Of a stretch of 64,000 nucleotides of DNA, positions 21,185-24,964 are shown in pieces. A model generated the notes under the pieces. That model ran no database searches and was not told the DNA's origin. It saw only the letters and a program-made list of their open reading frames with translations. Each line of letters opens with the position of its first letter. The first letter of the stretch is position 1. The translations under genes were made by a program, and so were the position numbers. Origin of the DNA: Lamellibrachia columna (Eukaryota; Annelida; Polychaeta; Sabellida; Siboglinidae); the NCBI GenBank assembly GCA_963662155.1, contig OY759263.1, positions 18,044,894-18,108,893 of the forward strand, read 5' to 3'.

Positions 21185-24058
21185 CTACTTATAACCCGCC
21201 CTCCTGAGATATGTGTCAACCTTGTTTTTAAACATATTCACGCTGCTAGCAGTTACACAATCTGTAGACAATTTGTTCCATTCATTTATTGTCCTCTGTG
21301 AGAACGAGTGCTTCCTGATGTCCAATCTACATTGATCCTTTACTAATTTTACCTCATGTCCTCTAGTTCTGCTATCCTTCTTGAGTGAGAAAAACATATT
21401 TCTATCAATAATTTCATACCCATTCAATATCTTAAAAACTTCAATCTGATCTCCTCTTAACCTCCTTGTCTCTAGAGTTGTTAAACCACATTCTTTCAGG
21501 CGTTCTTCATAACTAAGGTCTCTAAGTTCTGGAATCATTTTAGTTGCTCTCCTTTGTATGCGTTCAAGCGTATCTATATCCTTCTTACGATATGGTCTCC
21601 ATGCTTGTATACAGTATTCTAAATGAGGTCTAACTATTGCTTTATAAAGAGGTATAATTAACTTTTTTCCCTTGTATGTTATGTTTCTTCTAATCAATCC
21701 AAGAATTTGATTACCCTTTGAAGCTGCAATACCACACTGCTCTGAAACTTTCATATCAGCGCTTATTGTAACTCCTAAGTCCTTTTCTTTTACAGTAGTA
21801 CCCAGAACAGTATCTCCCATTTTATAGTTTACATTCAAGTTCCCATGTCCTGTATGTAGGCATTTACATTTCCCAAAATTGAACAGCATCTGCCATTTCT
21901 CAGACCATTTCACTAATCTGTCTAGATCGTTTTGTAAATGTTGTTTATCACCATCAGTATTAACCTTTCTAAACAGTTTTGTGTCATCCGCAAATTTCAG
22001 TACGTTACTTGTTATACTGTCGTCCAAGTCATTGATATAAATTAAGAATAATATAGGTCCTAGTACTGACCCTTGAGGTACCCCACTCAAAACCGATTTC
22101 CAATTTGAAACTTCTCCATCTACTACAACTCGTTGTCTTCTGTCAGTCAGCCATTGTTCTATCCAGTCAGTTATGCTATCCCCGATACCATGGGCTTTTA
22201 ATTTAAGTAGCAATCTTTGATGTGGCACTTTGTCAAAAGCTTTCTGAAAATCTAAGTAGATAATATCTACTGGCGATCCCACGTCTATCCACTTAGTGAT
22301 TTCTTCCAAAAAACATAACATATTTGTTAAGCATGACCTTGCTTTAAGGAATCCATGTTGAGATGAATTTAATAATTTATGCTTAACGAGGAAGTCCACC
22401 ATATGGTCTTTAATTAACCTTTCTAATAATTTACAAATCACTGACGTTAAACTCACTGGTCTGTAATTCTCTGACTTATTTCTCGAACCCTTTTTAAATA
22501 ATGGTATGATGTTTGCTTCTTTCCATTCAAACGGAACAACTCCCTCTTTTAATGACAAGTTGAATACTCTTGCAAGTGGTATACTGATTTGATCTACTGT
22601 TTCCATTAGTAATTTTGGAGGAATCCCATCCACTCCCGGTGATTTGTTATCCTTCATTGCCCTTATTTTCTTAGCTACCAATTCTGGAGTTACAACTAAC
22701 GGTCCTAAATATTCAGATTTAGCCCCCTGAAATTTAGCATCAGCAACTGGTAATGAACTAATATCTTCCTTGGTAAACACTGAACTGAAGTAACCATTTA
22801 GGTCTTCCGCCATTAAAAACCCCTGTGATATTATATTTCCAGCACTGTCTTCTAGAGGTCCAACCTTGTCTTGTACGTTTTGTTTACTCCTGACATATGC
22901 ATAAAAACTCTTGCTGTCATTTTTTATGTTACATGCCAGTTTTTGCTCATAGCTTCTTTTAGATTGTCTGATTTCAGTTGTAGCTGCATTAAGTGCCTCT
23001 TTGTATTTTGCATAGTCTTCTTCCTTTCTGGTACGCCTATAAACCCTCCACATAGTTTGTTTTAGCATTATTTTTCTAATAGCCTCTTTTGACAAATGTT
23101 TCTTTCTACACCGTTTTCCTTGTTTTCGGAAGGGAACAAATTTATCGATGATACTCTCAATTTCATATTTAAGAATGTTCCAGCATTCAATTGCGGTCTT
23201 ATTCATCAGCATGTTATTCCAATCTAGCTGTGCTAAGTATTTTCTCATATCTTTGTAGTTACCTTTGTGGAAGTTTCTCTTGTACGTTTTCTTATTTTTA
23301 CTTTCTGATTTTACATTGATGTCAAAATGTATTTGATTATGGTCACTATTACCCAATGGTTCAAATATTTTTACATTGTCCACTAATTCTTTTTGTGATG
23401 ACAAAACTATATCTAATACATTTTCTCCCCTGGTTGGTTCTAGTACGTGCTGAGTAAGAAAGCTATCCTGGATTAAACATAGAAATTGTTGATCCTCAAT
23501 CCCTGTGCTCTCTAGAGAATTCCATTGTATGTGTCCATGGTTAAAATCTCCCATTATGATACATTCCCCTTTACTAACTTCCTTTATAGCGTTTTTTATT
23601 TTTGTGTTGTCCTCTTCGTTTATGTTTGGACTTCGGTAAACTAATCCAATAGTTAATTTTGAATTTCCTGAAACAATTTTGCACCAAACAGCTTCATCGC
23701 AATCTGCTTCCCTTTCTAGTTTTATTTCATAAGCCTGAATAGATTCTTTAACATATAAAATAACTCCCCCGCCCCTTCTTCCTATTCGATCTTTCCTAAA
23801 CATTACGTATCCTGTCAGTCCTAATTCAGCATCTGTAATATCTATGTTGGCCCATGATTCAGTTATACCAATTATGTGAGGGTCAATATCTTCTACCATA
23901 ATGTTTAATTCGTTTTTCTTATTTACTATGCTCCTTGCATTTAAACATACGCATATATAACCTTTTTCAGAGATGTTTTTCGGATGATTTGATATTGGTT
24001 TATCTGTGCTAGTGGCCTCTTGTTCTGCTTGAGACACCTCTAGGTAACCCCCCTGCAC
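21185..24058 (-). CDS. CR1 ORF2: endonuclease and reverse transcriptase, 957 codons, intact
   Basis: Endonuclease: LNARSIVNK near residue 40, ITESWAN near 68, GDFNHGHIQWNS near 169, SDHNQI near 239. Reverse transcriptase: YRPVSLTSV, YLDFQKAFDKVPH near 601, [20 protein letters not shown] near 660 and FADDTKLF near 690. The C-terminal region, with [22 protein letters not shown] and [12 protein letters not shown], is diagnostic of the CR1 clade. The first codon of the open stretch is GTG; the frame opens just upstream at 24076, overlapping the end of ORF1. The first ATG is codon 54, downstream of the essential LNARS motif, so normal AUG initiation would give a crippled protein. Translation as a -1 frameshift product of ORF1 is proposed (see findings). 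Confidence 0.92.
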   Translation of the reverse strand: MQGGYLEVSQAEQEATSTDKPISNHPKNISEKGYICVCLNARSIVNKKNELNIMVEDIDPHIIGITESWANIDITDAELGLTGYVMFRKDRIGRRGGGVILYVKESIQAYEIKLEREADCDEAVWCKIVSGNSKLTIGLVYRSPNINEEDNTKIKNAIKEVSKGECIIMGDFNHGHIQWNSLESTGIEDQQFLCLIQDSFLTQHVLEPTRGENVLDIVLSSQKELVDNVKIFEPLGNSDHNQIHFDINVKSESKNKKTYKRNFHKGNYKDMRKYLAQLDWNNMLMNKTAIECWNILKYEIESIIDKFVPFRKQGKRCRKKHLSKEAIRKIMLKQTMWRVYRRTRKEEDYAKYKEALNAATTEIRQSKRSYEQKLACNIKNDSKSFYAYVRSKQNVQDKVGPLEDSAGNIISQGFLMAEDLNGYFSSVFTKEDISSLPVADAKFQGAKSEYLGPLVVTPELVAKKIRAMKDNKSPGVDGIPPKLLMETVDQISIPLARVFNLSLKEGVVPFEWKEANIIPLFKKGSRNKSENYRPVSLTSVICKLLERLIKDHMVDFLVKHKLLNSSQHGFLKARSCLTNMLCFLEEITKWIDVGSPVDIIYLDFQKAFDKVPHQRLLLKLKAHGIGDSITDWIEQWLTDRRQRVVVDGEVSNWKSVLSGVPQGSVLGPILFLIYINDLDDSITSNVLKFADDTKLFRKVNTDGDKQHLQNDLDRLVKWSEKWQMLFNFGKCKCLHTGHGNLNVNYKMGDTVLGTTVKEKDLGVTISADMKVSEQCGIAASKGNQILGLIRRNITYKGKKLIIPLYKAIVRPHLEYCIQAWRPYRKKDIDTLERIQRRATKMIPELRDLSYEERLKECGLTTLETRRLRGDQIEVFKILNGYEIIDRNMFFSLKKDSRTRGHEVKLVKDQCRLDIRKHSFSQRTINEWNKLSTDCVTASSVNMFKNKVDTYLRRAGYK

Positions 24059-24060
24059 TT

Positions 24061-24964
24061 CTAGTTTAAAGAATGTTTACTTCCAAAAACATTTGTCATT
24101 GTACCCAAGTCGCTATCTACTGCTGCTGAAAGTTTGTCCGCGAATACTGCCGCCCCCTTTCCACTTAAATGAAGCCCATCCTTCATGTACATATCTGCCC
24201 TCCCAACAAAACTTCCCCATAAATCCACAAATCCAACTTCCTCTTCCCTACACAGCCTCTGGACTAACATGTTAATTGCCATCCCCCGACAATTTCGATA
24301 TTTGTGACCCCTCCTGCCCATTACAGGTAAAATCCCTGACAGTATTACCTGCTCAACCCGCGTCTGTTTTAGTGTTCTGACCAACTGCCTATATTTCCTA
24401 ACTATGGCAGTTGTACCCTCCCTCTCTACGTTATTTGTCCCTACGTGTACTAAAACAGATCCACCCTTACCCGAGCCTACGATGTTTTTTACCCTCTCAG
24501 TTATCGCCTCTATTTTGGCTCCAGGCAAGCAGACCACCACATCATCTCCCTTGTTTAAGACTCTGTCGGTCTTCCTAACTATCGAATCCCCCACAAACAC
24601 CCTCGCTCTCTTCCTCACCCCCTCTATCACTGCTGCAGAATAACTCTTCCTTTCGATCCCCTCCATCACATTCTGTCCTGACCCCTTCCCTCCTGTCTCC
24701 CCCACTTCCCACTCCTTTGCTCTTGTCTCTCCCACTCCCCTCTCCTTCACTCCGGTTGTTTTCCCTTCCGTCTCCCCCACTCCCTTCTCCTTCCCTCCTG
24801 TCTCCCCTACTCCCCTCTCCTTCCCTCCGGTTGTTTTCCCTCCCGTCTCCCCCACTCCCTTCTCCTTCCCTCCTGTCGCCGCTACTCCCCTCTCCTTCAC
24901 TCCGGTTGTCTTCCCTCCCGTCTCCCCCACTCCCTTCTCCTTCCCTCCTGTCTCCCCTACTCCA
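24061..24964 (-). CDS. CR1 ORF1 (5'-truncated): low-complexity linker and SGNH-type esterase domain
   Basis: The N-terminal zinc finger is missing through 5' truncation. A repetitive linker (GETGGKEKGV / GKTTGVKERG units) leads to an esterase-like domain: VFVGDSIVRKTDRVL (GDS block), SVLVHVGTNNVEREG (the G-x-N block) and MYMKDGLHLSGKGAAVFAD (D-x-x-H block). These are the Ser, Asn, and Asp/His blocks of SGNH hydrolases, known in CR1/L2 ORF1 proteins. It ends SKHSLN then TAG at 24063-24061, with a TTTAAAC heptamer at 24070-24064. Confidence 0.88.
24700..24960. repeat. Purine/pyrimidine-skewed tandem repeats in CR1 ORF1
   Basis: CTCCCCTCTCCTTC-type blocks in units of roughly 30-36 bases, encoding the Gly/Glu/Lys/Thr linker on the minus strand. 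The block number differs from copy 2 (34620-34815), so the linker length is polymorphic within the family. Confidence 0.85.

Follow-up and report, generated by a model that had tools for sequence, protein, structure and literature searches.

How the second open reading frame (ORF) of long interspersed nuclear elements (LINEs) is translated is debated, and the routes named in PMC2881922 are reinitiation or other unconventional initiation (this and all other papers given by PMC number are cited from excerpts). Translation of ORF2 hangs on translation of ORF1 in SART1 and L1 (PMC2881922), and SART1 uses a UAAUG stop-start, according to the title of a paper cited in PMC2881922. For ORF2 of L1, AUG-independent initiation is held more likely; HeT-A gag requires frameshifting, and expression of the TART polyprotein is given as unknown (PMC5009743). 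In Paramecium LINEs, +1 frameshifting or reinitiation has been suggested (PMC5405496). The -1 frameshifting of coronaviruses and of Gag-Pol in retroviruses and long terminal repeat (LTR) retrotransposons uses heptamers of the class of U_UUA_AAC, which is among the most shift-prone with mammalian ribosomes (PMC5009743). Here we describe a CR1-like LINE in a 64-kb stretch of Lamellibrachia columna contig OY759263.1 (positions 18,044,894-18,108,893, 64,000 nucleotides (nt), called the window below), in which low-level programmed -1 frameshifting at U_UUA_AAC, as read from the sequence, probably makes an ORF1-ORF2 fusion.

This element resembles the CR1/L2-type LINEs with an esterase ORF1 in that esterase (a match to PDB entry 4c1b) and in the APE-type endonuclease and reverse transcriptase (RT) of ORF2, but differs from them in that its two ORFs meet at U_UUA_AAC-UAG, ORF2 lying in the -1 frame. 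In contrast to SART1, its two ORFs are not linked by any start codon that is kept throughout. HeT-A is likewise a non-LTR element with frameshifting, but it lacks its own RT and its shift serves gag, while the shift suggested for Paramecium LINEs is +1 (or reinitiation is suggested), not -1 at a canonical heptamer. The likeness to Gag-Pol would lie in an abundant upstream protein and a rarer polymerase-bearing fusion; compared with Gag-Pol and coronaviral frameshifting, the element is a LINE, its stop adjoins the heptamer, and no strong stimulatory structure was found. An earlier note on this DNA had stated that no such mechanism is known to be established for CR1-clade elements. No report of a -1 frameshift site in an element of the CR1 type was recognised in the literature searched, most subscription journals being outside its coverage, and the excerpts of PMC1925062, PMC1947958, PMC4255032, PMC8556966, PMC4700185 and PMC7175516 contain nothing on such a site.

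Protein matches identify the element as a LINE in which ORF1 encodes an esterase and ORF2 an endonuclease and RT. ORF2 matches the Pfam families RVT_1 (2.3e-32), Exo_endo_phos_2 (4.1e-14) and Exo_endo_phos (7e-08), and the esterase of ORF1 matches Pfam Lipase_GDSL_2 (5.3e-11) and 4c1b ('ORF1-encoded protein', 3.8e-23), which we take to be the ORF1 protein of zebrafish ZfL2-1. The clade name CR1 follows the earlier note and is presumptive. An N-terminal PHD-like zinc finger is a feature of CR1/L2-like LINEs with an esterase ORF1; a Cys-rich N-terminal stretch, HLICGSCSNWVDFVKSGCEKSW..CRGC, was recognised in ORF1 by eye, and no PHD match was found in the ORF1 proteins P0201 and P0276 in Pfam at E 0.1. 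The commonest ORF1 length is 429 amino acids (aa), seen in 34 of 120 among the best 120 of 1,609 database matches. A tandem repeat at 24685-24963 (minus strand), with a unit of about 75 base pairs (bp) (GETGGKEKGVGETGGKTTGVKERGV-like), precedes the esterase, and differing numbers of repeat units may lie behind the spread of ORF1 lengths. The copies in the window and the features of the junction are as follows.

24952-21089, minus strand: CR1-like element copy A, from alignment to copy B (96.8%)
24952-24064, minus strand: ORF1 of copy A, 3' part only, with a repeat linker and an SGNH esterase domain
24079-24077, minus strand: TAA closing the ORF2 (-1) frame, 9 nt 5' of the heptamer, from sequence reading
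24070-24064, minus strand: slippery heptamer TTTAAAC, read T_TTA_AAC in the ORF1 phase, from sequence reading
24063-24061, minus strand: ORF1 stop TAG, adjoining the 3' end of the heptamer, from sequence reading
24076-21185, minus strand: ORF2, APE-type endonuclease and RT, 963 aa from stop to stop
34225-38415, plus strand: CR1-like element copy B, from the ORF1 start (34225), frames broken, from alignment to copy A
35433-35442, plus strand: junction TTTAAACTAG of copy B, identical to that of copy A
8695-5635, minus strand: older-type copy C, two pieces (83% and 77% identical), homology starting right after the heptamer

The minus strand of copy A reads GTAAACATTC, then TTTAAAC, TAG and AAGTGCAGGGGGG. 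ORF1 ends with TCT TTA AAC TAG, and the -1 reading, TTT AAA CTA GAA GTG, is the ORF2 frame. The earlier note had claimed that TTTAAAC lies in phase directly before the ORF1 stop, with a -1 slip entering ORF2, and that the ORF2 frame is closed just upstream by TAA, so that the two frames overlap only across the slip site; re-reading of the minus strand confirmed both claims. The ORF1 frame is open over 25071-24061 and the ORF2 frame over 24076-21185, which confines their overlap to the slip site. The overlap offers three in-phase places, and the chance that one of them holds a canonical heptamer is about 0.4% (hand estimate). Copy A is 5'-truncated within ORF1 (homology with copy B starts near 24952), and its ORF1 is therefore without a start. 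The coordinates given for copy B begin at the ORF1 start and leave out any 5' untranslated region upstream, and the 5' end of copy C (8695, minus strand) falls almost exactly at the ORF1 stop. Readthrough of UAG in the zero frame was rejected for copy A, because this frame hits a second TAG after six further codons.

The junction is widespread in the genome. Counted over the whole 880-Mb genome (30 contigs, both strands, with the reversed pattern as control), TTTAAACTAGAAGTG occurs at 2,368 places (1,202 + 1,166, against 1 + 0 for the control), and the looser junction pattern TTTAAACTAGNNNNNCARGGNGG occurs at 2,562 places (1,300 + 1,262, against 0 for the control). A related-locus search of viral and prokaryote DNA collections found no relatives, and the 17 stretches matching the looser pattern there (7 prokaryote and 10 viral) include none with a CR1 match. 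At the DNA level, a first set of 22 rows (copies A and B with 20 fetched young-type copies) and a second set of 20 fetched copies were read. The stop that closes the -1 frame lies 9 nt upstream of the heptamer in all 22 rows of the first set, and 9 or 12 nt upstream in all 20 copies of the second. The codon before the last two codons of the heptamer is TCT, TGT or TAT in the rows read, and the base 5' of the heptamer is variable (C 20, A 12, G 10; n = 42). In the older subfamily (n = 18), ORF2 is 78-89% identical to that of copy A over the aligned piece.

Relatives of ORF1 from other families are found within longer database proteins, with identities mostly of 59-67% when aligned over long stretches. 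Among 225 ORF1 matches listed, 196 (P0121-P0316) were examined, and 171 of them end in LN (118 SKHSLN, 47 KVRYLN, 5 KVRFLN and 1 NVRYLN); the other 25 are copies that run on or are truncated, frameshifted, chimeric or fused. The best 120 of 1,609 matches, whose scoring region spans the C-terminus and so favours intact ends, comprise 118 ending SKHSLN and two that run on, while the 76 further matches comprise 53 ending in LN (47 KVRYLN, 5 KVRFLN and 1 NVRYLN) and 23 ending otherwise. Eleven proteins of other families are readable in the -1 frame across the site: LFKL stands there in six (P0022, P0309, P0311, P0312, P0314 and P0315), and YLKL, as after one inserted base, in three (P0244, P0268 and P0305). 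The combination of LN-stop in the zero frame with FKL in the -1 frame is possible only with TTTAAAY-TAG. In the group of P0245, P0301, P0305, P0314 and P0315, both halves are seen in different copies, LN-stop in P0245 and P0301 (the latter with the stop changed) and FKL in P0314 and P0315. The heptamer is read directly in the family of the window; the translated proteins leave no alternative to it in one further group and make it likely in two others. This canonical -1 arrangement is real: thousands of copies have it, and diverged families show traces that match it. ORF1 pieces also lie inside predicted Lamellibrachia satsuma host proteins (P0317-P0345, including diacylglycerol kinase beta and VPS52-like proteins); some matches in named proteins of this species are 97-100% identical over about one third of the query and one is 86% identical over most of it, and these pieces may be exonised copies or annotation artefacts.

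To compare subfamilies, diagnostic sites were taken from 24 young and 18 older copies, with a majority of at least 70% in young copies and of at least 60%, from at least 6 letters, in older copies. In the last 215 codons of ORF1, these sites fall at codon positions 1, 2 and 3 in numbers of 8, 6 and 30 (third position 30 of 44), and in ORF2 after the first Met in numbers of 92, 58 and 231 (third position 231 of 381). This third-position excess shows codon-position constraint on both ORFs.

The absence of a start codon was a further premise of the earlier note, which held that ORF2 has no ATG until codon 54. There is no in-frame Met between the slip and the LNARS motif in copies A and B, in 16 of 20 young-type copies, and in 10 of the 11 proteins of other families (the exception is P0009). 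The premise fails for 3 of the 20 young-type copies and 12 of the 18 older ones, which carry ATG at codon 12 after the slip; the remaining young-type copy has lost the frame. Copies A and B have GTG at this position, as do 17 of the 20 young-type copies and 4 older ones; the last 2 older copies are shifted by an indel, and 7 of the 12 older copies with the codon-12 ATG have a second Met at codon 33. Codon 12 is ATG in many of the older copies but GTG in most of the young, a start codon either lost or gained over the history of the family. A conserved GUG start directly after the stop was ruled out, GTG being replaced by GCG in the older subfamily (AAGCG follows the stop in 17 among 100 looser-pattern places listed). 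From these alignments, no start codon is kept throughout, whereas the heptamer and the register appear to be kept.

In the proposed mechanism, the majority of ribosomes would end translation at UAG and set free an ORF1 protein with a Cys-rich N-terminus and a C-terminal esterase, and a minority would slip back one base on U_UUA_AAC and read on into ORF2. The product, by analogy with Gag-Pol, would be a fusion protein of about 1,390 aa that joins ORF1 to the endonuclease and RT of ORF2; we infer that this is the active form, just as we infer the slippage itself and its rate. Slippage might be stimulated by the adjoining UAG, which could act as a pause, by a run of G 10 nt after the heptamer, or by a long-range structure. 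Since a slip signal stands at the gene boundary and the same layout or signs of it recur in diverged relatives, the second protein is probably made by -1 slippage.

A number of observations weigh against this mechanism. The ATG 23 nt after the stop (the codon-12 ATG, which is found in many of the older copies, in copy C and in 3 of the 20 young-type copies) is usable for reinitiation, and its presence in 12 of 18 older copies makes the no-ATG premise specific to a subfamily. The 2,562 places come from one amplified lineage and are not independent. The earlier note had looked to conservation of heptamer, stop and register across copies; the thousands of places and the traces in families with diverged flanks are favourable to this, but the DNA-level copies except A and B were selected by the junction itself, and finding it in them carries no weight. 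Among the proteins of other families, 2 of 11 break the heptamer, P0009 (LVKL) and P0248 (FIL); the -1 reading of the KVRYLN group is seen only as YLKL, with its inserted base; and the LN-stop end of the group of P0022, P0309, P0311 and P0312 was not seen among the proteins read. The stretch from the slip to the first Met has diagnostic sites in numbers of 6, 4 and 6 (third position 6 of 16), with no third-position excess, so this linker shows no coding signal of its own. The hairpin for which the earlier note proposed folding the downstream sequence was not convincingly found in five stretches and one alignment, pseudoknots being outside the check: the five stretches folded from copies A and B gave z values of -0.40 to +1.12, none beyond chance, and RNAalifold (26, 35 and 37 distinct rows for three spans) gave a weak 5-bp hairpin starting about 35 nt from the first base of the heptamer, which was equalled by 18, 1 and 1 of 100 column shuffles for the three spans, dinucleotides not being kept. 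This hairpin is not a convincing classical stimulator. The frameshift interpretation of the earlier note is supported in part: it gains from the widespread junction and the traces in other families, and loses from the negative or weak fold check and the partial ATG premise.

Among the alternatives, termination at UAG followed by a restart on ORF2 nearby, with AUG as the start in many of the older copies and GUG in the young, is consistent with the adjoining of the ORF1 stop and ORF2, with the ATG in 12 of 18 older copies, with the dependence of ORF2 on ORF1 translation in SART1 and L1 (PMC2881922), and with the importance of the first ORF2 ATG in the yeast LINE Zorro3 (PMC1965478). Such reinitiation may occur in the older subfamily. 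However, its start is not constant: where many older copies have the codon-12 ATG, copies A and B have GTG, as do 17 of the 20 young-type copies; the GTG closer to the stop reads GCG in the older subfamily; and a Met is lacking there in 10 of the 11 copies from other families. The persistence of TTTAAAC and of the -1 register would also be left unexplained. Overall, we consider reinitiation unlikely. It is less probable still, and rather improbable in our judgement, that the heptamer is a coincidence frozen in one amplified lineage with ORF2 made by internal initiation or from other RNAs; high copy number does multiply one master sequence and no clear stimulator was found, but LN-stop and FKL recur where ORF1 is mostly 59-67% identical and the residues before LN differ. 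If ORF2 began no earlier than the Met at residue 60 of its open frame, it would be without the LNARS block. This Met is the first ATG of the ORF2 frame in copy A, yet almost all of the aligned and listed proteins that extend to the CVCLNARSI stretch upstream of it conserve that stretch, which makes such a start very improbable.

Elsewhere in the window, two more distant LINE RT pieces lie at 28694-29349 and 2997-4088 (both plus strand), with 26-28% identity to ORF2, and an open frame at 19341-19742 (minus strand) looks by eye like the ligand-binding part of a natriuretic-peptide-type receptor.

With regard to the -1 frameshifting reading, we put forward tentatively, and with somewhat more doubt than confidence, that annelid CR1-like LINEs as a group use it at U_UUA_AAC-UAG, with the stop as the pause and not a pseudoknot, the endonuclease and RT supplied fused to ORF1, and slippage setting the ORF1:ORF2 ratio. 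If true, a conserved canonical -1 site would mean a Gag-Pol-like strategy for one group of LINEs, in which the ratio of ORF1 to ORF2 would be fixed in one step.

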